From the NCBI RefSeq assembly GCF_025151535.1, contig NZ_CP102288.1, forward strand, positions 3,109,501 through 3,173,500: a stretch of 64,000 nucleotides of DNA, in the 5' to 3' direction. The DNA is from Segatella copri DSM 18205 (GTDB lineage Bacteria > Bacteroidota > Bacteroidia > Bacteroidales > Bacteroidaceae). The notes beneath the pieces were generated by a model. It was not told where the DNA came from, did no database searches, and saw only the letters and a list, made by a program, of their open reading frames with translations. Both the position numbers and the translations under genes were made by a program. This document shows, one piece after another, positions 1 through 44,637 of the stretch (position 1 is the stretch's first letter; each line of letters begins with the position of its first letter).

Positions 1-10
1 TGGGTTACGG

Positions 11-160
11 ATACGACTCCGTAGGCTAATGGAGACGTATCCTTCGGCTTGTCGAGATATCTGCGTCAGCTGACGGAGCTACTTGATTCAGCTGATTGAG
101 CTACTTGCGTCAGCAGACAGAACCACTTATGTTAGCTGACTGAACTATATCAGTATTCAG
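11..160. repeat. Tandem 22-bp degenerate repeat array 1
   Basis: At least six consecutive units start at 11, 33, 55, 77, 99 and 121 and keep an exact 22-bp step; a partial unit follows at 143. Bases 1-10 look like the end of an earlier unit, so the array probably begins outside the window. Units 3 to 6 carry a dyad centred 22 bp apart (69.5, 91.5, 113.5, 135.5), for example CGTCAGCTGACG at 64-75 and TCAGCTGA at 88-95. Units differ strongly in sequence while the register never slips. There are no CRISPR-like spacers. Confidence 0.8.
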
Positions 161-446
161 TTGTATTACATGTGTATATTTTCTCTAACTTAATACCACA
201 TCTGCCACACTTATACTTAACTCTTTGATTATAAGCGAATAACGAGTGGCAATAAGGGGTGTTTCTGTTGTCACCTTATTGCCACCTGTTGCCACATTTT
301 GCCTAAAACCAGCAAAATATCGGTGTTTTAGATGGATTTTGGGGTGAAAACTAAGATGATATTGAGCAAAAACGCTGATTTTTCGGTTCAATATTAGGCT
401 TTTTCAATCGTTTTTTGCAATTTTACTTGGCAACAAAGGAAGAAAA

Positions 447-556
447 ATACGTTCCGATGCAGTAAAAAATGCGTCCCGATGTAGCATTTGCTACGTCCCG
501 ACGCAGCAAAAGATACGTCCGGACGTAGTACAAGATACGTCGGGACGTAATTTCAG
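447..556. repeat. Tandem 22-bp degenerate repeat array 2
   Basis: Five units start at 447, 469, 491, 513 and 535, all exactly 22 bp long. The shared core resembles TACGTCCCGACG-TAG. The fourth unit holds the perfect dyad ACGTCCGGACGT. The unit sequence is unrelated to the array at 11-160, yet the period is identical. It lies about 190 bp upstream of the promoter box of the SusC gene. Confidence 0.85.
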
Positions 557-722
557 CATTATGAAAACGGCTGCATAGAAACAAAAAAAAGTGTGTATTG
601 AACTTGTTTTTGCAAACTGTAATCGGATGTGACAAAAAACCAACAATTAACTAAATTTATGAGCAAATATGCTAAAAAAGATAGATATTTCGTGTTAATT
701 ATTTAAATTTTAAGCGATTATC

Positions 723-753
723 TTGGGCAAATAAGAAAATATTCGTAATTTTG
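723..753 (+). promoter_or_regulatory. Bacteroidota-type promoter for the SusC locus
   Basis: A -7 box TAATTTTG at 746-753 matches TAnnTTTG, and a TTGG at 723-726 sits about 20 bp upstream as the -33 element. It points at the SusC gene and implies a leader of about 140 nt. Confidence 0.65.
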
Positions 754-900
754 CACCGATTTAAGTTAAATAGGTATTTCCATGCGTGCATTTTAGTGAA
801 AGAATGTATAAATGGAGGGGCGAAGTGTTGCCCTGAGTGCTTTCGGCTTTTACCAAACGAGAAAAAAATGAGAAAAAATGATAATTATTAATTAATAAAC

Positions 901-3852
901 TTGAAACAAACAAGGATGAGAAGATTAACTCTTTTACTTGTCTCACTTGTATTGTTGTCTATCCAATCGGTCTTGGCGCAGAGTTTCAGCGTCAAGGGTA
1001 CAGTCGTGTCTGCTGAAGACAACGAACCGATGATTGGTGTGACCATTATGCAAGAGGGAACATCAAATGGCGTAGTGACCGATATTGACGGTAACTATAC
1101 CATCGAAATTAAGGGTGCTTCGAAGGCTACGCTTGCCTACTCTTATGTGGGTTGCGTTACGCAGAAGCACGTTGTGAAAGCGCAGACTAATACGCTCAAC
1201 ATCACCCTTGCTTCGGATTCCAAGATGATGGATGAAGTGGTTGTGGTGGCGTATGGCGTGAGAAAGAAGGGAACCATTGCGGGTTCCGTGTCTGCCGTAA
1301 AGTCTGAAAAGATAGAAAATGTGCCGGCGGCAAGCTTCGACCAAGCTTTGCAGGGACAGAGTACTGGTTTGCAGGTCATCTCTTCTTCGGGTGAACCTAG
1401 CAAGGCGGCTACCTTCCAGATCCGTGGTACCAACTCTATCAACTCCGGCAAGTCGCCACTCTTTATCCTCGACGGCGTGCCAATCTCAAGTTCTGATTTC
1501 AATACCTTGAGTCCTAACGATATCGAAAGTATCTCTGTATTGAAGGATGCCTCTTCTACCTCAATCTATGGTGCACGTGCTGCCAATGGTGTGGTTGTCA
1601 TCACTTCCAAGCGAGGCTTGTCAATGGACAAGGCGAAGATTACGCTCCGTGCACAGTATGGTTTCTCTGAGTTGGCACAGACCAACTGGAAAATGATGAA
1701 TACCGACGAGCGTATCCAGTTTGAGAAAGAAGTAGGTCTGGATACAGGTAAGGATTACAATCTCCTTTCAAGAGTAAACGTAAACTGGCTGGACGAGGTG
1801 TTCAACGACCGCGCTCCGCTGCAGAGCTACGAACTCTCTATCAACCGTGCTACCGACCGCTTGAACTACTATGTTTCTGGTGGTTTCTACGATCAGGATG
1901 GTATCGCACAGAATTCAACCTTCCGCCGTTACAACATCCGCACCAATGCTGATGTAAAGGCTGGCAAGTGGTTGAAGGTAGGTACCAACACCATGGCTGC
2001 CTATGAAGAGGCTCAGCAGGCTGACGACGGTAGCTATACTACCGTTACTCCTATCTCAGCATGCCGATTCATGCAGCCTTACTGGAATCCTTATGCCAAG
2101 GATGGCAGTCTGGCTTCACTTTCAGCAGGCAACTGGGCTGGAACCAGCGAGAACCCTATCGTTTACATGGGCTTGAATCCTATCAAGAACAAGAAATATA
2201 AGGTGCTCTCTACCATGTATGCTGAAATCTATCCGATAGAGAATCTGACTATCCGTACTCAGTTCGGTGCCGATTTCACCCATTCTACAGCGTTCCTCCA
2301 GTCGTTCCCAAGTCTCTCTTCAAATAACGGACAGGGTACTGCGGCACGCCAGAGCAGCGATGCCATCAACCTGACAGAGACTACTACGGCTAACTACCGT
2401 TTCACCCTGAACGATATCCATTCGTTCAACGTGATGCTGGGTCAGGAGGCTGTCAATTTCCACTCAGAGGGTTTCCAGGTATATTCCAAGGGTCAGACCA
2501 GCGATCTCCTGACCAACGTATCATCTGGTACACGTGCCAGCCGCTGGGCAGATTCATCTTCTGACTACTCTTACCTGTCATTCTTCATGCGTGGCGAGTA
2601 TAACTATAAGGAGCTCTACTATGCCGACTTCTCTCTGCGTACCGATGCTTCTTCACGTTTCGGTAAGGATCATCGCTGGGGTACATTCTGGTCGCTCGGT
2701 TTCATGTATAACGTGAAGTCAACCGACTGGCTGAAGGATATGAAGTGGCTCAGCACAGCCCAGATTGCCGTAAGTACCGGTACATCGGGTAATTCTGAGA
2801 TTCCTAACTATTATCATCTGGCTCTGGTATCGGGTGGTGCCAACTACGATAATACTGCCGGTTTCTCTCCATCACAGAGTGGTAACGAGGAATTGGGTTG
2901 GGAGTCAACATGGGCAAACAACTTCGCCCTCCGTTTGGGCTTCCTCGACAGAATCAACTTCAGCTTCGAGGCTTACTACAAGCGTACCTCTAATATGCTG
3001 ATGCGCGTTCCTGAGTCTTATACCGTAACCGGCGAGGGCTATCGCTGGAAGAACGTAGGTGTGATGGCTAACAAGGGTATCGAGCTGAGTGCTGACGGTG
3101 ATGTTATCCGCACACGCGACTTTACCTGGAATGTAAGTGCCAACGTATCTTACAACCAGAACCGATTGAAGGAACTCTATAACGGTGTAACCGAGTATGT
3201 AAACTCAACCACCGGTTTGAAGTATGTGGTAGGTCACTCAGTAAGCGAGTTCTTCCTGAACCGTTATGCCGGTGTGAATCCAGCGAATGGTGAGCAGCTC
3301 TGGTATGATAAGGATGGCAACGTGACCAACGAGTTCCGTGAGAGCGACAAGGTGATGACAGGCAAGACCTATGATGCACCTTGGATGGGCGGTTTCGGTA
3401 CAAGCTTCCGTTGGAAGGGCTTGCAGCTTTCTGCCCAGTTCAGCTGGATCGGTACACGCTACGTGATTAACAACGACCGTTACTTCGAGGAGAGCGGTGT
3501 AACCTTCGGTACTGCTTACAACCAGTCAAACCGTCTGTTGTACGACCGCTGGAAGCAGCCAGGCGATATTACCGACATCCCACGTTGGGGCGAGGTAACC
3601 CAGCTCGACGACCGCTTCTTGGAGAATGCATCGTTCCTCCGTCTGAAGAATCTCAGTCTGTCCTATTCATTGCCACAGAGTCTGTTGCGCAAGACCAACT
3701 TCTTCTCTATGGTCAGAATCTACGGTCAGGCACAGAACCTCTTCACCGTAACCGGTTTCAACGGTCTGGATCCTGAGGTTTCATCCAATATTTACCAGGC
3801 ACAGTATCCGGCATCACGCCAGTTTACTCTGGGTGTTGAATTGCAATTCTAA
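901..3852 (+). CDS. SusC/RagA-family TonB-linked outer membrane receptor
   Basis: This is the outer-membrane barrel of a SusCD uptake complex, importing an oligomeric ligand with TonB energy. A signal peptide ends at about SVLAQS. A carboxypeptidase-regulatory-like domain follows (about residues 28-110, GTV...GVTI...DGNYTI), then a TonB-box-like DEVVVVAYG, the plug with IRGTNSINSGKSPLFILDGVPI, and a barrel ending in the aromatic LGVELQF. The length of 983 aa is normal for the family. The reading frame opens with TTG at 901; an ATG at 916 gives the same signal peptide minus five residues and is a fair alternative. The SusD partner starts 18 bp downstream. The ligand cannot be told from sequence, but the downstream protease suggests peptide or glycoprotein. 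Confidence 0.93.
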   Translation: MKQTRMRRLTLLLVSLVLLSIQSVLAQSFSVKGTVVSAEDNEPMIGVTIMQEGTSNGVVTDIDGNYTIEIKGASKATLAYSYVGCVTQKHVVKAQTNTLNITLASDSKMMDEVVVVAYGVRKKGTIAGSVSAVKSEKIENVPAASFDQALQGQSTGLQVISSSGEPSKAATFQIRGTNSINSGKSPLFILDGVPISSSDFNTLSPNDIESISVLKDASSTSIYGARAANGVVVITSKRGLSMDKAKITLRAQYGFSELAQTNWKMMNTDERIQFEKEVGLDTGKDYNLLSRVNVNWLDEVFNDRAPLQSYELSINRATDRLNYYVSGGFYDQDGIAQNSTFRRYNIRTNADVKAGKWLKVGTNTMAAYEEAQQADDGSYTTVTPISACRFMQPYWNPYAKDGSLASLSAGNWAGTSENPIVYMGLNPIKNKKYKVLSTMYAEIYPIENLTIRTQFGADFTHSTAFLQSFPSLSSNNGQGTAARQSSDAINLTETTTANYRFTLNDIHSFNVMLGQEAVNFHSEGFQVYSKGQTSDLLTNVSSGTRASRWADSSSDYSYLSFFMRGEYNYKELYYADFSLRTDASSRFGKDHRWGTFWSLGFMYNVKSTDWLKDMKWLSTAQIAVSTGTSGNSEIPNYYHLALVSGGANYDNTAGFSPSQSGNEELGWESTWANNFALRLGFLDRINFSFEAYYKRTSNMLMRVPESYTVTGEGYRWKNVGVMANKGIELSADGDVIRTRDFTWNVSANVSYNQNRLKELYNGVTEYVNSTTGLKYVVGHSVSEFFLNRYAGVNPANGEQLWYDKDGNVTNEFRESDKVMTGKTYDAPWMGGFGTSFRWKGLQLSAQFSWIGTRYVINNDRYFEESGVTFGTAYNQSNRLLYDRWKQPGDITDIPRWGEVTQLDDRFLENASFLRLKNLSLSYSLPQSLLRKTNFFSMVRIYGQAQNLFTVTGFNGLDPEVSSNIYQAQYPASRQFTLGVELQF

Positions 3853-3870
3853 CCAAGAAAGGAGAAAAAA

Positions 3871-5397: not shown

Positions 5398-5412
5398 AAT
5401 AAGGAGACGATC

Positions 5413-6333: not shown

Positions 6334-7914
6334 ATGAAAACATTGATTTCAAAATATTGGCTCGTATTGATGGCGCTGGTATCAGTGACTCTGTTCACAG
6401 CTTGTTCCAGCGATGACGATGCCGTAACTCCTGTATTCCCACAGGTACAGCCTATCGCCGGTGAAGCTGGCGAAGTGAAAGAGTTTACTTTCGAAGCTAA
6501 CGAGAGCTGGAGCCTTTCTTCAGACAAAATCTGGTGTAAACTGGTGCAGGGCGAGAAAACAGACGCCTTCGTACTCAATGGTACTGCAGGCAAGCAGACC
6601 ATCAAGGTTAAGATTACTGATGATGATGCCAGCAAGGATATGAGCGTGGCTCAGCTCTTCCTGAATATGAGTGGTCAGAAGGTTGCCATAGCTGAGGTTA
6701 AGCGTTCGGCTGCCGGCTATAAGTTGCAGGTATTCGATGCGGCTGGCAATGATATCACCGAGACAGGTATCACTGTAGGTTACAATGTATACACCAAGTT
6801 TACCGTAAAGTCAAACTACCGTTTTGCTGTTACCAATACTCCAGCTTGGGTAGACTTGGAAGGCGGCTTCCTGGTAGGTACACCTAACAAGGATGCTGTA
6901 GGCGGAGTTTCCTTCAAGGAGAATCAGGGCGTAAGTGCTAAGTATGCCATCGCTAAGGACGGCAACTACACCATCACCTTTACTTCTGAGGATGGCAAGG
7001 CTGCTGTAACCGTACCTGTTATCTATAATGGTATGACCACCAGCACCATGGATGTTACTTATCCAACCTCTTCACAGTGGGCAGTATGGAATGTATCTCT
7101 CGATGGTAAGGTGTTCACTCAGAATGGTTCTAGCCTGACTGGTGGTGATACCAATGATTTCACTTTCTACAACTTCGTTCCTTTCACCCTCAAGACCTTG
7201 GGTGATGCTTACCAGCTGGTAGTCTTCGAAAACACGGAGAATGGTTTGTTTGAGGATGGAACTGGTGCTGTGAAGCTGCAGGGTGAGAAGGGTGATGTGA
7301 AGCTCACAGTCGCTCCATTAGGCAGCGGAAGCCGTGAGTTCTTGGTTTATGCATTGCCAAAGAGCGTATTCGAGAGTCTGGAGAATGGACTCGACGGAAT
7401 GCTGGAGGAAGACTTCATGACTGTGAAGAGCGATTACGACCGTTACTTCCTGATGGATGTTGTACAGAAGGAGGCCAACTCTTCTGCTGATGATCAGTCT
7501 GCAGCACCGACAATCTTGAAGATGAACTACTTGCCAGTAGAGTGCAAGAAGGATAAATCAATGTATGGTTCTGTCATATCAGAAGTATTTGGCTACAATG
7601 GTGACGAAATATATGTCGCTCAGTCAGAAGTAGGAAGCTCTCTTACAGTTAATCCTAATATCAAGGATTGGGATCCTACCACTATGATGGAGACAGGCTA
7701 TCTTACAGTTATGGATAGCAACGGAAATGATGTTCCTGCAGAGCCTAGTATGGATACGAATAATAACTGGGTATTCTTCGTAAAGGTTCCTGCTGCTACT
7801 CCGATATTTATGGTATTCGAGGACAACGGAACTCCTGTAAAGGTTCTTGTTGTTGAATCTCCTGGTGAGGGAATGAGTAAGAAACATACTTCTATCAGAA
7901 AAATTAGAAAGTAA
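6334..7914 (+). CDS. BACON-like surface lipoprotein
   Basis: A 526-aa lipoprotein with Cys24 (TLFTAC-SSDDDAV); the run of Asp after Cys predicts export to the cell surface. Residues about 35-110 (VKEFTFEANESWSLSSDKIWCKL...VKITDDD) look like a BACON or related immunoglobulin-like fold, repeated less clearly further on (YKLQVFDAAGNDITETGITVG). No catalytic motif is visible. Its stop codon overlaps the next start by one base (TAATG), indicating translational coupling. Probably an adhesive or binding component of the SusCD locus; the exact family beyond BACON-like is uncertain. Confidence 0.75.
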   Translation: MKTLISKYWLVLMALVSVTLFTACSSDDDAVTPVFPQVQPIAGEAGEVKEFTFEANESWSLSSDKIWCKLVQGEKTDAFVLNGTAGKQTIKVKITDDDASKDMSVAQLFLNMSGQKVAIAEVKRSAAGYKLQVFDAAGNDITETGITVGYNVYTKFTVKSNYRFAVTNTPAWVDLEGGFLVGTPNKDAVGGVSFKENQGVSAKYAIAKDGNYTITFTSEDGKAAVTVPVIYNGMTTSTMDVTYPTSSQWAVWNVSLDGKVFTQNGSSLTGGDTNDFTFYNFVPFTLKTLGDAYQLVVFENTENGLFEDGTGAVKLQGEKGDVKLTVAPLGSGSREFLVYALPKSVFESLENGLDGMLEEDFMTVKSDYDRYFLMDVVQKEANSSADDQSAAPTILKMNYLPVECKKDKSMYGSVISEVFGYNGDEIYVAQSEVGSSLTVNPNIKDWDPTTMMETGYLTVMDSNGNDVPAEPSMDTNNNWVFFVKVPAATPIFMVFEDNGTPVKVLVVESPGEGMSKKHTSIRKIRK

Positions 7915-16113: not shown

Positions 16114-16121
16114 TATCTTTG
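16114..16121 (+). promoter_or_regulatory. -7 promoter box for the ThiD-AraC gene
   Basis: TATCTTTG matches TAnnTTTG and follows directly on the terminator T-run. No clear -33 TTTG is seen 19-21 bp upstream. Because transcription would start after it, the in-frame TTG at 16119 cannot be the start codon. Confidence 0.6.
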
Positions 16122-16157
16122 CCCTCAAACTTATCATCGGGTTCAAAGTTTAAGAAT

Positions 16158-17120
16158 ATGATATTAACGATTACAGGTTCAGACAGCACCGGAGGCTCTG
16201 GTGTGCAGGCGGACATCAGGACGATTTCCGAGTTGGGCGGTTATGCTGTTTCGGCGATAACCAGCATCACTGTGCAGAATACGCTCGGTATTCAGGAGTT
16301 CTTTGATATTCCTGCCGAGATTGTTTCGGGGCAGATTGAGGCTATCATGAACGATATGCAGCCTGATATTGTGAAGATTGGTATGATACGCAGGGTGGAA
16401 ACGCTGAATGTGGTCATCGATGCGTTGACCAGGTACCGTCCTGCCCATATCATCTATGCCCCTGCCATCTGGTCGAGCCAGGGCGATGCGCTGATGACGG
16501 AAGATGTGGTGAGCCAGATCAAATACCGTCTGCTGCCGCTCTGTTCTGTCGTCGTGTCACGCAAGAAGGAGAGCGACATCATTCTTCAGAATTCCAAACT
16601 ACTGAGCCTTGCCGAGAAGCAGGGACTCCGGATCTATCGCCTCGACAATGCCAATTCGCATGGTCTCATCAACCGTTTCTCTTCAGCTCTTGCCGTCTAT
16701 CTGAATCAGGGCAAGAAGATGGAGGAGGCGCTGGCGATGGCGCAGGATTTCATCAATGTAGAACTCGTGCGCCAGAGCAATCTGCAGGGCAGGAGTTCCG
16801 AGCTTTACAACCAGTTTATATCGCAGGTTAATAACTTCTGCCGCACTTACAGCGATGTTCATTTCTATGCCGACCAGTTGAATGTGAGTGGCCGTTATCT
16901 GGCTCAGGTTACCCGCCGCATCTCCGGCAAGACGCCGAAGGCAATCATCGATGAATACATAGTGAAGGAGATAGAGCGCGAGCTTTCTACCACCACGCAT
17001 ACGGTTCAGGAGATAGCCAATACCTTCGGTTTCTCCTCGCAGGCGCATCTCACCAAATTCTTCAAGAAGATGAGAGGGGTAACGCCTTCTGCTTTCAGGC
17101 AACCAAAACCTGTTAATTAA
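16158..17120 (+). CDS. ThiD-like kinase domain fused to AraC-type DNA-binding domain
   Basis: A 320-aa predicted transcription factor. The N-terminal about 205 residues match phosphomethylpyrimidine/pyridoxal kinase ThiD: ITGSDSTGGSGVQADIRTISELG substrate-binding loop, AITSITVQNT, and DIVKIGMI. The C-terminal about 100 residues form an AraC helix-turn-helix (VSGRYLAQVTRRISGKTPKAIIDEY...TVQEIANTFGFSSQAHLTKFFKKMRGVTPSAFR). The ThiD catalytic anion-hole motif (H-GTGC in the enzyme) is replaced by SHGLINRFSS, and the ATP-binding strand with K-GG is missing, so the kinase part probably only senses a ligand. The pdxS-pdxT genes lie 1.7 kb downstream, which suggests control of vitamin B6 (or thiamine pyrimidine) metabolism. 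ATG 16158 was chosen over the TTG inside the promoter. Confidence 0.85.
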   Translation: MILTITGSDSTGGSGVQADIRTISELGGYAVSAITSITVQNTLGIQEFFDIPAEIVSGQIEAIMNDMQPDIVKIGMIRRVETLNVVIDALTRYRPAHIIYAPAIWSSQGDALMTEDVVSQIKYRLLPLCSVVVSRKKESDIILQNSKLLSLAEKQGLRIYRLDNANSHGLINRFSSALAVYLNQGKKMEEALAMAQDFINVELVRQSNLQGRSSELYNQFISQVNNFCRTYSDVHFYADQLNVSGRYLAQVTRRISGKTPKAIIDEYIVKEIERELSTTTHTVQEIANTFGFSSQAHLTKFFKKMRGVTPSAFRQPKPVN

Positions 17121-17138
17121 AATGAGTCCGGCCAATTA

Positions 17139-17286
17139 AGGAAATAAAATACGGTCAACTGAGGAAATGAAATACGGTCAACTGAGGAAATGAAATACGG
17201 CCAACTGAGGAAACGAAATCCAGCCAACTGAGGAAATAAAATCCAGCCAACTGAGGAAATAAAATCCAGCCAACTGAGGAAATATC
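17139..17286. repeat. Tandem 23-bp repeat array 3
   Basis: Six full units start at 17139, 17162, 17185, 17208, 17231 and 17254, each 23 bp, plus a partial unit at 17277. The shared parts are AGGAAATAAAAT and CCAACTG. The first three units differ from the last three by ACGG versus CCAG, so the array seems to have grown by duplication. It starts 18 bp after the stop codon of the ThiD-AraC gene and ends just before the promoter of the ATPase gene. Confidence 0.9.
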
Positions 17287-17331: not shown

Positions 17332-18603
17332 ATGGAATACAAATATAGAATCGCAGACCAAATGCTGGCAAAGAAACTGGCAAGCAAGGGGGCTATCTTG
17401 ATAGAAGGTCCAAAATGGTGTGGGAAAACTACCACCGCCGAACAGCAGGCTAATAGTATCCTGTATATGGATAATCCTGCCTCATTGGAAACAAATCTAC
17501 AGATGGCAGAGATTGATGCTTCTTTCTTGCTGGAGGGTGATACGCCAAGACTTATTGATGAATGGCAGTTGGCACCCAAACTTTGGGATGCCATCAGATT
17601 TGAGGTTGACCATCGGCATGATGTGGGACAGTTTGTCTTGACAGGCTCTGCTGTACCTGCAGATGAAAAAGATATGCACCATTCTGGAACAGGACGGTTC
17701 AGTTGGCTAACGATGAGACCAATGAGTCTCTATGAATCAGGCGAATCAAACGGAAAGGTGAGTTTGGCACATTTATTTGAAACACCAGAAAAGATAGTTG
17801 CCATTAACAAACTGAAGATAGATGACCTGGCATATCTGATTTGCCGTGGCGGTTGGCCTTTTGCTTGTGGATTACAAGGCGAAGCAGCTTTGGAACAAGC
17901 ATTCGACTATGTGGATGCTGTTATTAAGAAAGATATTTCGCGGGTGGATGGAGTAAATCGTAACGCAACGACTACAAGATTGCTATTGCGTTCATACGCC
18001 CGGAATCAAGGTTCGCAAGCAACCATCGGAACGATAGTGGCTGATATGATGACAAATGATGAAAATGAAATTAGCGTGAAGACAGCAGGTAGCTATCTGG
18101 AAGCCTTGCGCAAGATTTTTGTCATAGAGGATTCCGAAGCCTGGAATCCTAACCTACGCTCCAAGACGGCTATCCGTACTGCAAATACCCGTTACTTTAT
18201 AGACCCGTCTATCGGAACGGCAGTATTGGGACTGGGGCCTAAAGATCTTATCAACGACCTCAATACGATGGGGCTCTTTTTTGAAACCCTTTGTATTCGT
18301 GATTTGCGAGTCTTTGCAGATGCATTAGATGGAGAGGTGTATCATTATCGCGATAAAAATGGATTGGAATGTGATGCTGTTGTGCATCTGCGTAATGGTA
18401 AATATGGACTTGTTGAAGTAAAGTTAGGTGGCGACAAGCTCATTAACGAGGGTGCAGAAAACCTGCTAACTCTTGCCGGTAAAATAAATACAGAAAAAAT
18501 GAATGATCCATCTTTCATGATGGTACTTACGGGAACAGGCGATTTCGCTTATCGAAGAAAAGATGGTGTTTATGTTGTTCCTATCGGGTGCTTGAAAGAT
18601 TAA
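17332..18603 (+). CDS. AAA ATPase with DUF4143 domain
   Basis: A 423-aa protein of the AAA_14/DUF4143 type. Walker A is GPKWCGKTT (about residues 26-34), Walker B is RLIDEWQLAP, and the sensor-like FVLTGSAVPADEK follows. The N-terminal half is the ATPase, and the C-terminal DUF4143 part (about residues 195-400) has the nuclease-like EVKLGG motif in CDAVVHLRNGKYGLVEVKLGG, reminiscent of PD-(D/E)xK folds. These ATPases are abundant and variably present in Bacteroidota; their role is not established. It is a single gene between the ThiD-AraC regulator and pdxS, so it may be an insertion that separates regulator and target. Confidence 0.88.
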   Translation: MEYKYRIADQMLAKKLASKGAILIEGPKWCGKTTTAEQQANSILYMDNPASLETNLQMAEIDASFLLEGDTPRLIDEWQLAPKLWDAIRFEVDHRHDVGQFVLTGSAVPADEKDMHHSGTGRFSWLTMRPMSLYESGESNGKVSLAHLFETPEKIVAINKLKIDDLAYLICRGGWPFACGLQGEAALEQAFDYVDAVIKKDISRVDGVNRNATTTRLLLRSYARNQGSQATIGTIVADMMTNDENEISVKTAGSYLEALRKIFVIEDSEAWNPNLRSKTAIRTANTRYFIDPSIGTAVLGLGPKDLINDLNTMGLFFETLCIRDLRVFADALDGEVYHYRDKNGLECDAVVHLRNGKYGLVEVKLGGDKLINEGAENLLTLAGKINTEKMNDPSFMMVLTGTGDFAYRRKDGVYVVPIGCLKD

Positions 18604-18866
18604 AATAAGGTTCATTTTACTTCTTGCCTGGTAACGGTACTAAGTTGCATCAGCGCTTCTTGATTTTCAATCAAAGTCCAATTTAGAGCGAGTTAGTATT
18701 TTTAACAGCTTTCCTCCTCTTTATATATTCAGGAATATCTCTTATATATTTGCGAATCTCTCTTTATACAAAATGACTCAATGTTTGCAGAAAATGGAAC
18801 ATTTTTTTCTGTTTTCAGTGAAAAATGTTTCCTTTGCAGCCGTAATTGAATAAAAATATAAGAATT
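18604..18866. other. Intergenic region before pdxS
   Basis: No gene or clear array is seen. The stretch is AT-rich near 18720-18830. A degenerate -7 box TTCCTTTG lies at 18829-18836 (T instead of the usual A at position 2), followed by GCAGCCG, about 30 bp before the pdxS ATG. Any site for the ThiD-AraC regulator would be expected here, but none can be defined by eye. Confidence 0.4.
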
Positions 18867-19742: not shown

Positions 19743-20311
19743 TGAGAATAGCAGTATTAGCTTTACAAGGCGCTTTTGCTGAGCACAGACAGAAGTTGGC
19801 TCAGTTGGGCGTGGATAGTTTCGAGGTTCGCCAGTTGAAGGATTGGAACCAGCCAAAGGATGGCTTGATTATTCCGGGCGGTGAGAGTACTACCCAGGCG
19901 AAACTCTTGAATGAATTGGGATTGATGGATCCAGTGAAGGTGGCGATTGCTGCCGGCTTGCCAGTTTATGGTACCTGTGCCGGTTTGATTCTTCTTGCCA
20001 AGAAGATTGAGGGCGAGCCTAGCCAGCGCATTGCTTCGATGGACATCACGGCTTTGAGAAATGCCTACGGTCGCCAGTTGGGCAGTTTCTACATCGAGGC
20101 TCCGATGAAGGGCATCGAGGGAAATATCCCAATGACTTTCATCCGTGCCCCTTATATTAAAGAGGTGTGGGGAGATGCTGAGGTTCTTGCTGAGGTAGAT
20201 GGCAAGATTGTGGCTGCCCGCCAGGGTAACCAGCTCGTTACCGCCTTTCATCCTGAACTGAACGAAAGTCTGGAGATTCATAAGTATTTTCTGGGGATGT
20301 GCAGCAAGTAG
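19742..20311 (+). CDS. pdxT: Pyridoxal 5'-phosphate synthase glutaminase subunit PdxT
   Basis: The glutaminase subunit supplies ammonia to PdxS. Typical motifs are visible: [15 protein letters not shown] at the N-terminus, IPGGESTT, the nucleophile Cys in VYGTCAGLILLA, and the His-Glu pair in TAFHPELNE. The length of 189 aa is normal. It overlaps pdxS by one base. A 22-bp repeat array begins right at its stop codon. Confidence 0.97.
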   Translation: MRIAVLALQGAFAEHRQKLAQLGVDSFEVRQLKDWNQPKDGLIIPGGESTTQAKLLNELGLMDPVKVAIAAGLPVYGTCAGLILLAKKIEGEPSQRIASMDITALRNAYGRQLGSFYIEAPMKGIEGNIPMTFIRAPYIKEVWGDAEVLAEVDGKIVAARQGNQLVTAFHPELNESLEIHKYFLGMCSK

Positions 20312-20448
20312 GCTTCATCCAGAGATGAAACTTATTTCGTTGCCCGATGAAACAGGCTTCATGGGCACATGAAGCTACATAGCAAAGTATCTTAGGATAC
20401 ATTGCCAAGTATCTTAAGATACATGAGCAAGTATCCTAAGATACTTTT
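20311..20448. repeat. Tandem 22-bp repeat array 4
   Basis: Six units start at 20311, 20333, 20355, 20377, 20399 and 20421, all 22 bp. The first and third share GGCTTCAT...ATGAA; the last three share ACAT-GCAAGTATC-TAAGAT and make the perfect dyad GTATCTTAAGATAC across unit ends. Two sequence families are thus placed on one 22-bp grid. The array begins at the pdxT stop codon and ends in a T-run, so it may also serve as its transcript 3' end. Confidence 0.88.
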
Positions 20449-20482
20449 TTATTGAATGTCTGATACTTTTTTCCGATAAATG

Positions 20483-20514
20483 TTTGCCGTTTACAAATAT
20501 TCATCGTATCTTTG
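20483..20514 (+). promoter_or_regulatory. Promoter of the second AAA ATPase gene
   Basis: TTTG at 20483-20486 and TATCTTTG at 20507-20514, spaced by 20 bp, fit the Bacteroidota consensus very well. The start codon is about 42 bp downstream. Confidence 0.75.
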
Positions 20515-20555
20515 CATTATGAAATCTTCGTTACGTAAAACTCATAATGATGTAA

Positions 20556-21683
20556 ATGCTTATGGTACAGTTAAATCCTTTTATTATTGAAGGCTATCTT
20601 TCGCCGGAATATTTCTGTGATAGGGTAGAGGAAACAGCTCTTCTTACCCGCCATTTGACCAATCGGTGCAATGTCGCATTGATTGCACCAAGACGTCTGG
20701 GTAAGTCGGGACTGATTTATAATTGTTTTCAGAAGGAAAACATCCGTGAGCAGTATCATTGCATCTATATTGATATTTATGATACGAAGAATTTGAACGA
20801 ATTCGTCTATGCGCTGGGCAAGGGAATCCTGACGGCACTCAAGCCAAAGGGCAGGAAAGTATGGGAATTTTTCCTGAATATGCTCCAGTCTCTGAAGTCA
20901 ACTATCACTTTTGACATCAATGGAAATCCGGAGTGGAGTGTTGGTTTGGGAGATATTCAGGCTCCGGATATTACGCTGGATGAGATCTTCGCTTATCTCG
21001 AACAGGCAGATAAACCTTGTCTGGTGGCGATAGATGAGTTTCAGACAGTTGCAAACTATCCAGAGAAAACCGTTGAGGCAACCTTGCGTAAGCGAATACA
21101 GAATTGCCACAATGCAAACTTTGTCTTTTCTGGCTCCAAGCGCCACATGATGGCATTGATGTTTACTTCCCAGTCACGCCCGTTCTATCATAGTTCGAGT
21201 ATCATGGGGTTGGAGGCAATCAATGAGCAGACTTACCTGGATTTTGCCAATCACCATCTTGCCAGGAACAATAAAGAGATAAGTGCAGCGGCTTTTACCT
21301 ATTTATATCATCATTTCGATGGCATTACCTGGTATATTCAGTATGTACTCAATATGCTTTATACTTCAATTTCTGATAGGTCTTTGTTGCAGGAGGATGA
21401 TGTCAGGATGGCGATAGATAGCATCCTTTCCCAGCAACGCTTTGCCTATCAGGCCTTGCTGTATCAGCTTACAGCCAAGCAGAAACAGCTTCTCATAGCC
21501 ATTGCTCAGGAAGGTAAGCCTTCTTCCCTGATGTCGCAAGAGTTCTTGCAGAAGTATCATCTTGGTGCAAGCACCGTGCAGGGAGCTGTCAAGACCTTAC
21601 TGGACAGAGACTTTATCACGCAAGATGAAGGCGTTTACCAATTATGTGACAAGTTTTTGGAGCTGAGCCTGCGAGCTGGTTGA
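20556..21683 (+). CDS. Archaeal-type AAA/STAND ATPase
   Basis: A 375-aa ATPase. Walker A is APRRLGKSGLI (about residues 45-55) and Walker B is CLVAIDEFQTV. The sensor region reads FVFSGSKRHMM, and the C-terminal part (TAKQKQLLIAIAQEGKPSSL...LGASTVQGAVKTLLDRDFIT) is a winged-helix domain. This fits the Archaeal_ATPase (PF01637-like) group. No membrane segment is visible. ATG at 20562 is a minor alternative start. It is monocistronic and flanked by 22-bp arrays on both sides. Function is unknown; roles in stress or mobile-element defence have been proposed for related families but nothing here proves it. Confidence 0.85.
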   Translation: MLMVQLNPFIIEGYLSPEYFCDRVEETALLTRHLTNRCNVALIAPRRLGKSGLIYNCFQKENIREQYHCIYIDIYDTKNLNEFVYALGKGILTALKPKGRKVWEFFLNMLQSLKSTITFDINGNPEWSVGLGDIQAPDITLDEIFAYLEQADKPCLVAIDEFQTVANYPEKTVEATLRKRIQNCHNANFVFSGSKRHMMALMFTSQSRPFYHSSSIMGLEAINEQTYLDFANHHLARNNKEISAAAFTYLYHHFDGITWYIQYVLNMLYTSISDRSLLQEDDVRMAIDSILSQQRFAYQALLYQLTAKQKQLLIAIAQEGKPSSLMSQEFLQKYHLGASTVQGAVKTLLDRDFITQDEGVYQLCDKFLELSLRAG

Positions 21684-21876
21684 GTAAGTAAAAGATACGT
21701 CTGAGTAAGCGAAATGAAGCGGCAGAGTGAGCCTACTGATATATCTGAATAAGCCTACAGATATGACTGAGCAAGCACAAGGATATGACTGAACAAGCAC
21801 AAGGATTCGACTGAGCAAGTGAAAGAATACGTTTGCTCAGGTTCAAGAAGTTTGAATATCAGGTTAAAGGAGTATG
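21679..21876. repeat. Tandem 22-bp repeat array 5
   Basis: Units start at 21679, 21701, 21723, 21745, 21767, 21789 and 21811, all 22 bp, with two weaker ones at 21833 and 21855. The common core is CTGAGCAAGC-CAAGGATATGA. The array begins at the stop codon (21681-21683) of the AAA ATPase gene. It continues on the same side into the palindromic repeat at 21895-21985. Confidence 0.85.
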
Positions 21877-21894
21877 TATCTAAGAGATTCCCCA

Positions 21895-21985
21895 CTAGGC
21901 TCAGCAGCTCTGCTGAGCCTAGTCAGCAGGTCTGCCGACTGCAGTCAGCACATCTGCCGAGCCTAGTGGCAACACCCTATAATCG
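21895..21985 (-). repeat. Dispersed triple-palindrome repeat, copy 1
   Basis: Three palindromes are centred at 21908.5, 21930.5 and 21952.5, exactly 22 bp apart. The first is the 28-bp dyad CTAGGCTCAGCAG...CTGCTGAGCCTAG. The outer end reads CAACACCCTATAATCGTAC. The reverse complement of this stretch matches 44411-44501 almost base for base over 63 bp, so it is one dispersed element in two orientations. Confidence 0.9.
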
Positions 21986-22023
21986 TACAACCACACACCT
22001 TTTAGCTGTACGATAATAACCGT

Positions 22024-23810: not shown

Positions 23811-23924
23811 ATGGAAGTTTACAATGGACTATTGTTTTTCTTTGTGGTTGGAACAATCATAGGTGGGAGCTTTCTTGCCTGGACTTATACTAAGCCCGGT
23901 AAAAAATGGCTTAAGGAATTGTAG
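23811..23924 (+). CDS. Single-pass membrane micro-protein, paralogue B
   Basis: A 37-aa ORF: MEVYNGLLFFFVVGTIIGG followed by SFLAWTYTKPGKKWLKEL. It has a different N-terminus from its three neighbours but the same GxSFLAW and TKPGKKWLKEL tail. It lies 11 bp after the first copy. It is too short for default gene finders. Confidence 0.72.
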   Translation: MEVYNGLLFFFVVGTIIGGSFLAWTYTKPGKKWLKEL

Positions 23925-23928
23925 TGTT

Positions 23929-24033
23929 ATGAGCTATTTGGCATTGTTCTTTTTAGTATGCTCGATTTTCGGTCTTGGTTTTATAGCTTGGACTTATACT
24001 AAATCGGGTGAAAAGTGGCTTAAGGAATTGTAG
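23929..24033 (+). CDS. Single-pass membrane micro-protein, paralogue C
   Basis: A 34-aa ORF: MSYLALFFLVCSIFGLG, then FIAWTYTKSGEKWLKEL. Spacing to the previous stop is 4 bp. It is nearly identical to the next copy at the nucleotide level, including the linker, so copies C and D are a recent tandem duplication of about 109 bp. Confidence 0.74.
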   Translation: MSYLALFFLVCSIFGLGFIAWTYTKSGEKWLKEL

Positions 24034-24037
24034 AATT

Positions 24038-24142
24038 ATGAGCTATTTGGCATTGTTCTTTTTAGTTTGCTCAATTTTTAGCCTAAGTTTTATTGCCTGG
24101 ACTTACACAAAGCCAGGTAAAAAGTGGCTTAAGGAGTTATAA
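24038..24142 (+). CDS. Single-pass membrane micro-protein, paralogue D
   Basis: A 34-aa ORF: MSYLALFFLVCSIFSLS, then FIAWTYTKPGKKWLKEL. It ends 4 bp before the folP ATG at 24147. A longer folP frame that starts at TTG 24093 runs through this ORF in another frame, but its N-terminal residues do not look like DHPS, so the micro-protein reading is favoured. Confidence 0.74.
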   Translation: MSYLALFFLVCSIFSLSFIAWTYTKPGKKWLKEL

Positions 24143-35794: not shown

Positions 35795-35799
35795 TAATT

Positions 35800-38154: not shown

Positions 38155-38286
38155 TTATCTGCCTGTTTTAATCAGACTCCTAATTGGTAATTCATAAGCT
38201 GTTTAAGGCAGACTGTTAACTGGCAAACCACAGACAGCCTACTGGCGCTATAGCCGCTAGTGGACTGTTCGCCTAGAACAGCCTTC
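38155..38286. repeat. Tandem 22-bp degenerate repeat array 7
   Basis: Units start at 38177, 38199, 38221, 38243 and 38265, with a weaker one at 38155. They share starts of the form CTG-TT or TGGC. The dyads GCTATAGC (centre 38250.5) and CTGTTC...GAACAG (centre 38273) lie about 22 bp apart. Conservation is weaker than in the other arrays but the period is the same. Confidence 0.62.
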
Positions 38287-38404
38287 CCCTTTGCCTTTGT
38301 TTCGTTTTTATGCGAAGCTTACGAAGAAATACTCTTCACTCTTCACCTTTCGCTCGGAATCCCCTGTGTTTATCGGCATTCCGGGCGGTGAAGAGTATTC
38401 GGGC

Positions 38405-38519
38405 ACTCTTCACCTACTCTTCACCACTCTTCACCTCTCTGTTTCGGCGGATTTGCGTATCTTCTTACGCCTCGATGCCTCGTGCCTTGGTGAAGAGTGG
38501 TGAAGAGTGGGTGAAGAGT
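38405..38519. repeat. 31-bp inverted repeat of CTCTTCACC units
   Basis: The left arm (38405-38435) is three ACTCTTCACC-type units. The right arm (38489-38519) is their reverse complement with one mismatch, GGTGAAGAGTGG and so on. The loop of 53 nt includes TTTCGGCGGATTTGCGT. Further single CTCTTCAC units lie at 38331-38350 and GTGAAGAGT at 38578-38592. No gene overlaps; the short ORFs across it are low complexity. Confidence 0.85.
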
Positions 38520-38610
38520 CGCTGATAACTCTTCACCCCTTGAAACGCCCTGTTTATGGGCGTTTCAGAGCATAAGGTGAAGAGTGAAGAGTTTCTGACG
38601 GAATAGGTCT

Positions 38611-38644
38611 AAGCCCCGACTGCCGTCCAGCAGTCGGGGCTTTT
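38611..38644 (+). terminator. Strong rho-independent terminator
   Basis: AAGCCCCGACTGC pairs perfectly with GCAGTCGGGGCTT, with a six-base loop and a T-run. No gene ends close by on the plus strand, so it may end transcripts from the repeat region or the acyltransferase gene. Confidence 0.85.
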
Positions 38645-38717
38645 CGTAGCATTATGTTAGCAGGATTTGACTTTTATTGCTTTTCTTCTGTACTATCTTG
38701 TTGAATGTATGTTTTTG

Positions 38718-38749
38718 TTTGGAAGTTACAATATTTTATTGTAACTTTG
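38718..38749 (+). promoter_or_regulatory. Promoter of the decayed PD40-type gene
   Basis: TTTG at 38718-38721 and TAACTTTG at 38742-38749 with a 20-bp spacer match the consensus. It still looks intact although the gene it served is broken. Confidence 0.65.
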
Positions 38750-38820
38750 TACGGGTATAAGGAAAGTTCTAAATCGTCCACGGGTGTTGTGGAAAGAACA
38801 TGAATTTAAAATATAATCTC

Positions 38821-39185: not shown

Positions 39186-39203
39186 CGGAATCTTTATAAT
39201 TCC

Positions 39204-40271: not shown

Positions 40272-40452
40272 CTCGTTTTTCTTTTTTTCGGCAGCAAAGG
40301 TACGGATAATATCTGAGATATAAGAATATAGACAGGATGAAATGATAAAAATACCGAGATATGGGGATAGGAACAGGCTGGATAGAACGGAAAAGAGGGA
40401 AATAAAGGCTTGTTTTCCTTCACTTCCCCCTATCTTTTTCTTATTTCCTGCT

Positions 40453-41415: not shown

Positions 41416-41483
41416 TGTTATTTCGTTTTTTATTTGTTATTTCTGATATATATTGCTCTTGAATCTTTCTTCTTGAATCTTGA

Positions 41484-41517
41484 TGTTTGCAAAGTTTGCA
41501 TGCAAACCTTGCAAACA
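41484..41517. repeat. 34-bp near-perfect palindrome
   Basis: TGTTTGCAA...TTGCAAACA with the centre TTTGCATGCAAA; only one base pair of the dyad mismatches. It sits in the 160-bp gap between argF' and proA, upstream of the argF' start. Confidence 0.75.
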
Positions 41518-41537
41518 TGGCAGAAACTAAGACTTGG

Positions 41538-41574
41538 TACGGAGAGGGTACGGAGCAGGTACGGAGCGGGTCTT
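41538..41574. repeat. GTACGGAG 11-12-bp tandem repeat
   Basis: GGTACGGAG occurs three times in a row with 11-12-bp steps, just 3' of the proA stop codon (proA ends at 41576 on the minus strand). Confidence 0.7.
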
Positions 41575-41575
41575 G

Positions 41576-42862
41576 TTAGGCTCTTGTCTGTCCCTGACCT
41601 GTAATCAACCACTTGTAGGTGGTAATCTCTTCTAGCGCCATTGGTCCGCGGGCTCCAAGCTTTTGGGTACTGATGCCAATCTCTGCGCCCAATCCGAACT
41701 GTGCGCCATCGGTGAAACTGGTTGGAGCATTCACATAAACGCAGGCTGCATCTACCATCGCCTGGAACTTCTTCTGGGCAGTTTCATTGTTGGAAACAAT
41801 GCTCTCGCTATGTCCGCTTCCGTAAGTGGCGATATGGTCGAGTGCTTCATCTTCTGAAACAACGGTTTTGATGCCCATCTGCATGCTGAGCCATTCGGTG
41901 TTCCAGATACTCTTCACGTTGGCATCAGCCTCTTTCATCTTCGCTTCGCTTTCCTCTGCCTTATATAATAAGGTGTCAGGATAGTGTCCCTTTAAGGCTT
42001 CGTAAGCCTTGGCATCTGCATGAATCTTGGTCTGTTTCTCGGCGAGTCCCTCGCAGAGAGCAGGGAGGTCGCTTAATCTGTTTTCGTGAATCAGCAGACA
42101 GTCGAGCGCATTGCATACGCTCACTCTTCGGCACTTGGCATTGGTGATGATGCGCTTGCCCATCTCCAGGTCGCCATCCTTGTCGAAGTAACAATGTACC
42201 ACGCCGGCTCCGGTTTCGATAACCGGAACTTTGGCAGTATCACGGACGAAGTTGATGAGCTTCTTTCCTCCACGAGGAATACAGAGGTCAATATAGCCCA
42301 CGGCATTCAGCATTTCGCCGGTAGCTTCATGGGTAGCAGGGAGCAGTGTAACAACATTCGGATCAATACCAAAAGTTATCAACACCCTGTGGATAAGTTC
42401 GACACCCGCTGAGTTTGAGGCGTTTGCATCCTTACCACCTTTCAGTACGCACGCATTTCCACTCTTGAAACAGAGTGAGAAAACATCGTAAGTCACATTA
42501 GGACGGGCTTCATAAATCATGCCGATAACTCCGAATGGAACGGCTACTCGCTGCAGATGCAAACCATTTTCGAGTGTTTTGTCTTTGAGAACTCTTCCGA
42601 GCGGTGAGGGCAGGGTACTTACGTGTCGCATATCCGAAGCAATATCCTGGAGTCGCTGCTCTGTGAGTTGCAATCGGTCGTAGAGCGGGTTCGCCTTGTC
42701 CATCTTCGCCAGGTCTTCTGCGTTCGCTGCAAGGAGCGCAGGAGTCTCTGCGATGATAGCGTCAGCCACCGCCTTTAGCACTTCATTACGTTGTTCGTCG
42801 CTGAGCAAGCCCAGTGTCTTGCTAGCTGCCTTCACTTTTTGGAAAGTCTCTTTCAGTTCCAT
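41576..42862 (-). CDS. proA: Glutamate-5-semialdehyde dehydrogenase (gamma-glutamyl phosphate reductase)
   Basis: Second step of proline synthesis: NADPH reduction of glutamyl 5-phosphate. Features are [73 protein letters not shown], and the catalytic Cys in [16 protein letters not shown], then [30 protein letters not shown]. The length of 428 aa is normal. It is far from proB and proC in this window. A minus-strand -7 box (TACCTTTG) lies at 42933-42940. Confidence 0.96.
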
Positions 42863-42932
42863 TTGCTATTTCCTTTCTTATTTTTATGATAAGATATTTT
42901 GTAATGTGTTACGAGTTCCCTCTTAACAACGG

Positions 42933-42940
42933 CAAAGGTA
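42933..42940 (-). promoter_or_regulatory. -7 promoter box for proA
   Basis: CAAAGGTA on the plus strand reads TACCTTTG on the minus strand, about 70 bp upstream of the proA ATG. Confidence 0.5.
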
Positions 42941-43028
42941 AGCATAAATATCGGAAATTGCAAACTTTATGCAAGAAAAAGTGATGATTTTATAGATAAA
43001 TGGATAGTTATACGGAAAATGAGATTTA

Positions 43029-43133
43029 AAAAGGTCAGGCAGCGCCTGACCTTTTGGGGGTAGCAAAGAAGATTCAGCAGACAGTGTCTGCTGTTTTTGC
43101 TTTTTGAATTCTTCAGACAGTGTCTGAAGAATT
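43029..43133. repeat. Three consecutive palindromes
   Basis: AAAAGGTCAGGC/GCCTGACCTTTT (43029-43055), CAGCAGACA/TGTCTGCTG (43075-43093) and AATTCTTCAGACA/TGTCTGAAGAATT (43107-43133) follow each other. The first could be a terminator on the minus strand. The second and third share the CAGACA-G-TGTCTG core. Confidence 0.75.
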
Positions 43134-43234
43134 GTTAACTCTTTGAATTTCAGGTAGAACTTCTTGAAATTCATGATGTTTGTCTCCGAGAATCCTTTTC
43201 CGAATTCTATCGCAGAAATACTCAGAACTTTCAT
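43100..43234 (-). pseudogene. Fragment of a YhcG/DUF1016-type PDDEXK protein
   Basis: The reading frame from 43234 gives ISAIEFGKGFSETNIMNFKKFYLKFKE, which resembles the N-terminal domain of DUF1016 (YhcG) proteins, where FGKGFS-x-NL-xxM-xxFY is typical. The frame then enters the palindromic repeats and unrelated sequence, so most of the gene (normally about 350 aa) is gone. The fragment is short, so the assignment is tentative. A -7 box (TACCTTTG, minus strand) is at 43325-43332. Confidence 0.5.
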
Positions 43235-43358
43235 ATCCTTTGGTAAATGAAAAGATTTTCTAATTTCTTGTTACTTAGTTTTATACGCCATTACATCTTT
43301 TGTGTTACAGCCTTATTGTAAAGGCAAAGGTACAACTGTTTCTTGAATATGCAAAAGA

Positions 43359-43401
43359 AAATGGCAGAAAGTTGAGGTACATACTCAACTTTCTGCCATT
43401 T
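43359..43401 (-). terminator. Terminator hairpin after the lipoprotein gene
   Basis: AAATGGCAGAAAGTTGAG and CTCAACTTTCTGCCATTT form an 18-bp perfect stem with a 7-nt loop. It lies 17 bp after the minus-strand lipoprotein gene stops. Confidence 0.8.
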
Positions 43402-43418
43402 ATGATGTAATCTTTTGA

Positions 43419-43889
43419 TTATTTAATCTTCTTGAATGTGATAGTACTAGGATATGAGGCGTTGCCATCCAGATTGTATTTTAAAACCATAGTTGTCGAA
43501 TTAATACTCTGTATGGTATACACATCTAAAACGTTGATGCCATCTTCTTCGTATGTAGTTAATTTGTTGCCTGAGATAGTATAGGCTTCTCCGGAACAAT
43601 CTATTTTCCATTTGTTTCCAGTCCAAAAATACTCATTGAAAGTGCCACCTTGCTTGAATTCGAAAGAGATAGCATCATCAATGTCTATGTCCTGATCTAC
43701 TTTAGCAGGCTTGTCATTTTCATCCCAGTCATAGCCTGTTACATGTGTAGGTTGCCACATTCCAATGATGTATGTCTGGACATCTTCTGGGGAAGGCGTG
43801 TCTTCGTCATCTGAAGAACAAGCAGTGAAAGACACCATTGCAAACAAGGCGAAAAGAATCGCCAAAAGAGAAAAATGTAACTTTTTCAT
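43419..43889 (-). CDS. Small lipocalin-like lipoprotein
   Basis: A 156-aa lipoprotein with lipobox Cys25 (FAMVSFTAC-SSDDEDTPSPED), acidic after the Cys, so probably surface exposed. The mature part is a beta-rich domain (IIGMWQPTHVTGYDW...KWKIDCSGEAYTISGNKLTTYEEDG...INSTTMVLKYNL) like Bacteroidota lipocalin-type proteins. It is preceded by a long leader (about 300 nt) with structured segments and its own promoter at 44203-44210. Function unknown. Confidence 0.75.
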   Translation of the reverse strand: MKKLHFSLLAILFALFAMVSFTACSSDDEDTPSPEDVQTYIIGMWQPTHVTGYDWDENDKPAKVDQDIDIDDAISFEFKQGGTFNEYFWTGNKWKIDCSGEAYTISGNKLTTYEEDGINVLDVYTIQSINSTTMVLKYNLDGNASYPSTITFKKIK

Positions 43890-44210
43890 AAAATTTGCCC
43901 GTTATGCCGATAGCTATGCTTTTAATGTTATTAAATTAGTGAACTGGATAGATTGCGAAGCCATCGTTCTACATAACCTACGGATACAAACACGTGGACG
44001 AAACTTGTCCAAATTGCAGCCGTAGGAAAAGCTGATTAGAACAACAAGTAACGCCCACGATATAGCGGACGTTCACTATCTGTCGTTTCTAATGCTCTTT
44101 TTGAAATTTCCTACGTTCCAATTTGCATGACCGAATAGCAAACGCTAATTTAACCATCAAAAATATGGAAGTCCTCACAATAGTGTGATTCGATTCCAAC
44201 TGCAAAGGTA
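43890..44210 (-). promoter_or_regulatory. Long structured leader and promoter of the lipoprotein gene
   Basis: A -7 box TACCTTTG (minus strand, plus 44203-44210) would give a leader of about 310 nt. On the plus strand GTTCTA (43969 on) pairs with TAGAAC, CCTACGG with CCGTAGG, and GGAC with GTCC, giving a nested three-part hairpin over about 43969-44042. Next to it AACGCCCACGATATAGCGGACGTT (4-base steps quoted in parts: AACGCCC and GGACGTT) is an imperfect dyad. No protein is convincing. Could be a cis-acting RNA or a recombination-site-like element. Confidence 0.5.
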
Positions 44211-44410
44211 AGGATAATTCTTGAAATAGCAAAATTAAACCCAGAAATTTAAAGGAAAAATTTTCTTTTTGCCTTGCTTCTGTGCTTTTTAAGTTTGTCT
44301 GCACAGCCCTCTTGCTTATCTTTAAAAGTCAAAGGATAGTTCTATGAAGAACGTTCCTTATTCTCTTATATATTGTTGATGATGTTGTATCACAAGAGAA
44401 TTGTATTCGT

Positions 44411-44501
44411 ACGATTATAGGTGTTGTCCCTATAGTCAGCAGATGTGCTGACTGCAGTCGGCAGACCTGCTGACTAGGCTCAGCAGAGCTGCTGAGCCTA
44501 G
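44411..44501 (+). repeat. Dispersed triple-palindrome repeat, copy 2
   Basis: Palindromes are centred at 44443.5, 44465.5 and 44487.5, 22 bp apart; the last is the 28-bp dyad CTAGGCTCAGCAG...CTGCTGAGCCTAG at 44474-44501. The stretch from GCAGATGTGCTGAC to the final CTAG is identical to the reverse complement of copy 1 for about 63 bp. The flank ACGATTATAGG-TGTTG is also shared with copy 1. Confidence 0.9.
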
Positions 44502-44505
44502 CGGC

Positions 44506-44637
44506 AAACTCCGAGAAGCAGTATTCTCTTACCCAAGAAACTGTCTCCGCTAACTCAAGAAACTATCTCCGTTAACCCGAGATTCTGTGTCCGTAAGCTT
44601 AAGCAACCACATTCTCTTACTTAAGCAACCATATTCT
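44506..44637. repeat. Tandem 22-bp repeat array 6
   Basis: Six units start at 44506, 44528, 44550, 44572, 44594 and 44616, all 22 bp. Cores are TTAC-CAAGAAACT-TCTCCG in the first half and TTAAGCAACCA-ATTCT in the second. It directly continues the triple palindrome, mirroring the order seen at 21679-21985. Confidence 0.87.

Follow-up and report, generated by a model that had tools for sequence, protein, structure and literature searches.

Intergenic repeat arrays of Segatella copri and other Prevotellaceae share a 22-bp step across differing unit sequences

What keeps the spacing of tandem repeat units constant when their sequences differ? The question is raised by a stretch of 64,000 nucleotides (the window) of Segatella copri DSM 18205, a member of the Segatella (Prevotella) copri group with a 3.33-Mb single-contig genome (G000, in which the window is C1:3109501-3173500), whose MurF is 99% identical to those of S. 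copri Indica and iA622, 97% to that of an uncultured Prevotella genome, and 92% to that of S. copri iAQ1173. The original prediction described seven intergenic arrays here with unrelated units but a common period of 22 bp, once 23 bp. We compared each array with 1000 dinucleotide shuffles, at the lag proposed for it and at all other lags, and ran Tandem Repeats Finder over the window with a minimum score of 40. Six arrays lie far above the shuffles. Lag 22 was the best lag for 11-160 (identity 0.64), 447-556 (0.72), 20311-20448 (0.61), 21679-21876 (0.64), and 44506-44637 (0.64), and lag 23 was the best for 17139-17286 (0.93); in all six cases, none of the 1000 shuffles reached the value at any lag. 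The seventh, 38155-38286, was rejected as a 22-bp array, since its identity at lag 22 was 0.31, another lag did better, and 98% of shuffles reached as much at one lag or another, 9% of them doing so at lag 22 itself; it is also absent from the Tandem Repeats Finder list at that score. Two dyad arrays with lag 22 had been overlooked, at 21896-21976 (0.63) and 44418-44500 (0.64), and no shuffle equals either. Adjoining the rejected array, positions 38330-38592 hold inverted arms of about 105 bp made of GTGAAGAGT/ACTCTTCAC repeats, with more than 10 related places in S. copri Indica.

The period also stands out in bulk intergenic DNA. Lag 22 ranked first in the window, in a 400-kb sample of the genome, and in two congeners. 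The 8.6 kb of intergenic DNA in the window gave 313 matches at lag 22 versus 0 in 20 dinucleotide shuffles; lags 23 and 44 gave 122 and 142 matches, and coding DNA of the window gave none at lag 22. Sampling the same genome in twenty pieces of 20 kb gave 535 lag-22 matches in 51 kb of intergenic DNA, versus no more than 1 in 5 shuffles, and 77 in 347 kb of coding DNA. With simple repeats removed beforehand, lag-22 arrays made up 7 of 14 arrays in the window (10.9 per 100 kb), 8 of 40 in the genome sample (2.0), 9 of 37 in Indica (2.25), 11 of 24 in genome G016 (5.5), 9 of 16 in genome G010 (5.0), and 21 of 60 in 59 murF loci (2.0). The window is thus unusually rich in them, and in each Prevotellaceae set counted no other single period is as common as 22 bp. 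Other periods summed exceed it in several sets (32/40 in the genome sample, 28/37 in Indica, 39/60 in the murF loci), though the largest of them reaches at most 4, 4, and 10 arrays, respectively. Raw matches in the murF loci are more numerous at lag 7 (1148) than at lag 22 (921), owing to heptamer repeats (lags 7, 14, and 21), a separate phenomenon. Five other Bacteroidales genomes held one lag-22 array in 346 kb (1 of their 11 arrays); this lone array outside Prevotellaceae lies in 64 kb of genome G026 and is by itself not distinguishable from the Prevotellaceae rate. No lag-22 array was found in 50 kb of Escherichia coli or in a 21-kb Porphyromonadaceae locus, and none was listed for eight murF loci titled Muribaculaceae or Bacteroidales. 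The pattern is real, is spread through Prevotellaceae, and is unusual in keeping length over sequence.

The arrays are of two kinds, dyad and directional, joined in varying order, at times with a 23-bp dyad array as well, in dispersed, modular, non-coding intergenic elements (window positions 1-556, 21684-22013, and 44404-44657 among them), several of which are absent from related strains. What had been described as separate arrays at 11-160 and 447-556 are two parts of a single element, A, of 637 bp, which runs from window position -80 to 556 and so starts about 80 bp before the window (L135:1420). Its left part is a directional 22-bp array on the plus strand (1-160; motif match z 5.9), its middle (161-442) contains an inverted repeat GTGGCAATAAGG..CCTTATTGCCAC near 245-296, and its right part is a dyad 22-bp array (443-562) with the core CGTCNNGACG and fold z values of -7.7 and -5.7 on the two strands. 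Further long copies lie in G000 near 1281159-1281816 and 3309052-3309537, the latter with an internal deletion, and 32 matches were listed for window positions 1-600, self included.

Element B combines the same two kinds of array. In the window, a directional 22-bp array on the plus strand (21684-21880; motif z 7.3, fold z -0.6 and -0.7) follows directly behind an AAA_14-type ATPase gene (20556-21683, plus strand) and is succeeded by a three-unit dyad module (21890-21985; fold z -7.0 and -7.8 for 21890-22015) and by the remnant of a 23-bp GTACAAC array extending to about 22013. A second copy lies on the minus strand, with its dyad module at 44404-44502 and its directional array at 44508-44657, on the 3' side of an ATPase gene (44821-46239, minus strand). 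The dyad arrays at 21896-21976 and 44418-44500 are one module in opposite orientations, contrary to the claim of unrelated units. The module occurs in at least seven places in this genome (window 21885 included; seven of 18 candidates scored), to which the copy at 44404 is extra, in three places in Indica (one of them a weak match), and, weakly and once each, in two more of 120 genomes. The fullest composite, at 443.67-444.58 kb of G000, has the order dyad A, directional, dyad B, 23-bp array. In 7 of 10 copies a same-strand open reading frame ends 173 to 392 bp before the module; none was detected for the other three. An orientation relative to replication was considered and rejected, as 3 of 8 copies in this genome run with it (judged by hand from GC skew every 160 kb).

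Two further arrays stand near pdxT and an ATPase gene. The array behind pdxT (20311-20453), conserved in S. copri iA622 (L112), ends in a three-unit dyad array at 20372-20453 (AAGTATCYTARGATACTT; fold z -7.9 and -8.6) followed by a T run, and this part probably also ends transcripts. The 23-bp array occupies 17131-17284, between the stop codon of the open reading frame 16119-17120 and an AAA_14/DUF4143 ATPase gene (17332-18603). A paralogous AAA_14/DUF4143 gene near 2.27 Mb of G000 likewise has a 23-bp array just upstream (L224:1274-1389), with a different unit sequence. Arrays of 23 bp also include GTACAAC arrays at loci L398 and L400; lag 22 is commoner. Side observations in this part of the window include the frame 16119-17120 itself, in which an HMP-P kinase-like N-terminal part is fused to a C-terminal part of the AraC DNA-binding type, a dispersed repeat of about 50 bp (18656-18707) upstream of an SOR/SNZ (pdxS-like) gene, with 11 places listed in Indica, and a 109-bp unit in 2.4 copies at 23877-24135.

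We asked how far unit sequences are shared. Ten element B copies were aligned on the dyad module; their directional arrays enter the module in 22-bp register in 9 of 10 cases, the window copy at 21684 being one base off. Nine copies supplied a directional motif (58 units, consensus ACGnCTTnTnnnGTTnAAGGAn, 15.4 bits in total), whose skeleton is retained in copies that differ at other bases. Seven arrays of this genome outside the motif set, chosen by eye for similarity, match it at z 3.9 to 7.3 versus column-permuted controls: 21684, element A twice, L140 (the same place as L397), L149 (the same place as L399), L015, and L018. None of 18 others exceeded z 2.0. The original prediction that units differ completely between arrays holds only in part: 447-556, 20372-20453, and 17131-17284 did not match this skeleton, and 11-160, 21679-21876, and 44506-44637 share it in degenerate form. 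Counting array pairs as sharing a unit at z > 3.5, we found 36/36 pairs in G016, 24/136 in this genome, 4/28 in Indica, 4/15 in G010, and 19/153 among the murF-locus species, and only 3/153 between G016 and this genome. Unit families therefore differ between these species, and the step is common to them. Between strains, no genome-specific drift of units was seen (mean similarity 0.46 within G000 versus 0.44 between G000 and Indica); the L325 array has a similarity of 0.54 to its Indica orthologue versus 0.52 to the nearest array in its own genome, and a test for within-genome homogenisation in S. copri gave no clear result on the same comparison.

Length is conserved better than sequence, as had been proposed. 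Directional motif matches follow one another at 22 bp in 151 steps, versus one step each at 20, 21, and 23 bp; another 15 steps have other lengths, none above 40. This count is partly circular and overstates the constraint, since many of the arrays themselves went into the motif and some of the loci overlap one another. Among palindromes behind murF in other species, with a motif picked after its arrays had been seen, all 14 steps shorter than 60 bp equal 22, and one shuffle gave none. Substitutions and gap events stand at 261:61 in intergenic DNA, 2612:48 in coding DNA, and 12:0 in arrays. Between two element A copies, the ratios are 34:0 in the directional array, 43:3 in the middle, and 5:1 in the dyad array, a difference too small to count alone. 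In the arrays compared, length changes mostly by whole units. The orthologous arrays L325 and L324 are 148 bp each and about 60% identical, next to a gene with 252/290 and a module with 85/95 identical positions; an alignment with gaps allowed inserts four cancelling gaps in the array.

Selection for long stem-loops, acting as terminators, mRNA 3' ends, or cruciforms, could yield a 22-bp step as a by-product of 11-bp stem halves. Each of the three window dyad arrays tested forms a single nested hairpin on either strand (6/6 folds, z -5.7 to -8.6), and one is followed by the T run behind pdxT. In 32 of 42 dyad arrays, units at mirror positions are more complementary than when their order is permuted (Wilcoxon 1.1e-5), versus 19 of 33 non-dyad arrays; dyad arrays were picked by their permuted mean so that the choice would not favour the effect, five cut-offs gave binomial p values of 0.0001 to 0.008, and these p values are optimistic because homologous arrays are among those counted. 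The window array 21894-21977 opposes the effect (0.78 observed versus 0.81 permuted). Dyads within units, attributed earlier to many units, are a property of some arrays, 26 of 51 at p <= 0.05, in a test that does not register array-wide hairpins. Against a hairpin function, three directional arrays with an equal step show no excess folding (6 folds, z 0 to -1.8). Their consensus is weakly self-complementary, but no covariation appears at dyad centres within units (0.416 observed versus 0.423 null; of the 44 centres tested, a few others reach z 3.7 to 4.6), a result that suits independent half-sites better than a helix. On these two grounds we rejected RNA hairpins as an explanation of the directional arrays. 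In oriented dyad arrays, mismatches (GT 22, AC 14, other 62) carry no clear G-U bias of the kind expected for RNA, an Rfam search of the window gave 0 matches at the gathering score, and dyad arrays with both neighbours known show no clear preference for convergent genes (8/27 versus 84/494 intergenic regions, a partly different set). Since hairpin-forming and non-folding arrays both use 22 bp, the step seems more basic than the hairpin, and we consider stem-loop selection a serious rival but improbable as its source.

Mirror complementarity is also what template switching could leave. If slippage or template switching in replication or repair gained and lost 22-bp units, the arrays would be functionless and their mirror symmetry the product of quasi-palindrome correction. 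Consistent with such fixed-step copying, L324 units are near-identical while those of its orthologue L325 are diverse, the G016 sample consists of one unit family throughout, and the related arrays L397 and L399 differ in unit number. However, ordinary slippage has no preferred period, and although other periods summed exceed 22 in several sets, none singly passes the 4, 4, and 10 arrays given above. Copying of this kind also sits poorly with the directional skeleton, retained while other bases differ between copies, and with the GACTNNAGTC palindromes, which are retained behind murF in 6 of 60 loci while their spacers change. We rank fixed-step copying second, as a serious rival that is nonetheless rather unlikely.

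The dispersal of the elements and their patchy presence in relatives would also fit multi-site ends of a Tn7/Mu-like mobile element, mostly as MITE-like remnants. Window positions 20454-22023, which hold the AAA_14 gene and an element B copy, are missing from iA622, where 47 bp separate the pdxT-side array from the murF stop codon, and at the place in Indica that corresponds to 43402-46516, about 1.25 kb of other DNA stands instead of a counterpart. An element behind a small gene next to L330 is missing at that stop codon in 3/3 relatives, one of which has a directional-looking array about 280 bp further on (by eye). The L018 array is missing in 4/4 relatives, with anchors that are only 71 to 83% identical and may be paralogues; searches with pieces from L015 and L327 found no orthologue in four genomes. 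Three copies of element A, whose flanks differ, all have a sharp right end, and the L395 copy has a 62-bp direct repeat on both sides (6989-7050 and 7564-7625). However, the left end is defined by the window copy alone, the other two long copies sharing 154 bp more; the first and last 24 bases of three element A copies do not pair as terminal inverted repeats, their 8-bp flanks contain no target-site duplication, and no autonomous parent was found. Arrays lie more often near AAA_14/ATPase_2 genes (8/45 loci versus 4/95, p 0.019; at looser thresholds 10/45 versus 5/95, p 0.013, and 13/45 versus 10/95, p 0.006; 9 of 54 loci excluded as repeats or weak, window genes 17332 and 20556 outside the set) and near PDDEXK_2 genes (4/12 versus 7/100 tiles, p 0.017), and for two of the three long element A copies the distance to a PDDEXK_2 gene is about 365 and 405 bp. 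Both excesses are moderate and come from small tests, which accessory regions, with their long gaps, confound. We rejected a general link to AAA_14/ATPase_2 genes. Altogether, transposon ends appear a remote explanation. Two observations belong to these gene families in their own right: at L395 3128-6648, a Y1 transposase gene and a PDDEXK_2 gene are duplicated together in tandem, adjoining the element A copy, and 40 of 48 AAA_14 matches in the whole of G000 (3.3 Mb) exceed the family cut-off, a large paralogous ATPase set.

Our first choice, held tentatively and with somewhat less than even confidence, is that the step is held at the DNA level by a putative oligomerising DNA-binding protein. 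Each unit would be a putative binding site; a protein that oligomerises along DNA would need sites about two turns apart and so would keep the step; unit sequences would be free to change along with the protein, and the step would not. Dyad arrays can also form long hairpins or cruciforms. Several findings count against the protein. The proposed phasing on one DNA face is only approximate, since by arithmetic 22 bp is not exactly two turns but 2.1 turns at 10.5 bp per turn, a rotation of about 34 degrees per unit. A row of independent operators would not need array-wide mirror complementarity (32/42), the gap argument weakens inside element A (34:0 versus 43:3 and 5:1), and the L325/L324 arrays are about 60% identical, with no genome-specific drift shown at strain level. 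A 22-bp ruler common to all Prevotellaceae, either an oligomerising DNA protein whose sequence preference shifts between species or a copying machine that writes exact 22-bp steps, is an attractive but doubtful extension. Short repeats are usually known by their sequence and vary in length; here, unit length is kept across species while sequence drifts. A protein responsible for the step would be a new factor, architectural or regulatory, in a dominant gut genus; if copying is responsible, repeat birth in these bacteria would have a defined step, which is directly testable.

How do these elements compare with known systems? Plasmid iterons and the ends of Tn7 and Mu are rows of repeats about two turns long bound by one protein, with Tn7/Mu transposase sites of about 22 bp. 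The S. copri arrays resemble them as rows of roughly two-turn repeats and differ in that no replication initiator or transposase could be linked to them and in having several unit families per genome. In function, the elements would be closest to BIME arrays or iterons. A literature search, mainly of works outside subscription, found no 22-bp array family in Prevotella in titles and abstract openings. As far as the portions consulted describe them, REPs and the GTAG- and CGTC-tagged palindromes are dispersed intergenic palindromes in mosaic groups, BIMEs are both regularly spaced REPs and binding sites, and REPs are tagged and often accompanied by a RAYT transposase (PMC3733652; PMC2817692). 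The element B dyad module (at least seven places plus window 44404) is similarly a short extragenic palindrome in many grouped copies; unlike in REP/BIME, as so described, non-palindromic arrays have the 22-bp step too. A REP/RAYT system was rejected: no 20- to 23-bp array occurs in the 3.3-kb loci of the two PF01797 (Y1) genes of the genome, where the sole repeats are 24-bp ones within coding sequence. One of these two genes is about 1.5 kb away from element A. BrickBuilt of Porphyromonas gingivalis, in the parts of its description consulted, is a dispersed intergenic element with imperfect 23-nt tandem repeats in variable unit number at 19 loci, with some strain differences, a single repeat family, IS5-like terminal inverted repeats, and indels of 0 to 6% within elements (PMC4596501). 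Its terminal repeat GAGACC(A/T)T(T/C)GCA has no match with up to two mismatches on either strand of five element regions. On that partial account, the S. copri elements share with BrickBuilt their dispersed intergenic position, their occurrence in Bacteroidales, and tandem repeats of varying unit number; unlike BrickBuilt with its single family, S. copri has several, mostly of 22 bp, and combines dyad with directional arrays. From the portions of this literature consulted, BrickBuilt and the REP/BIME elements are the nearest relatives, and the best reading of the arrays is that they are BIME/BrickBuilt-like.
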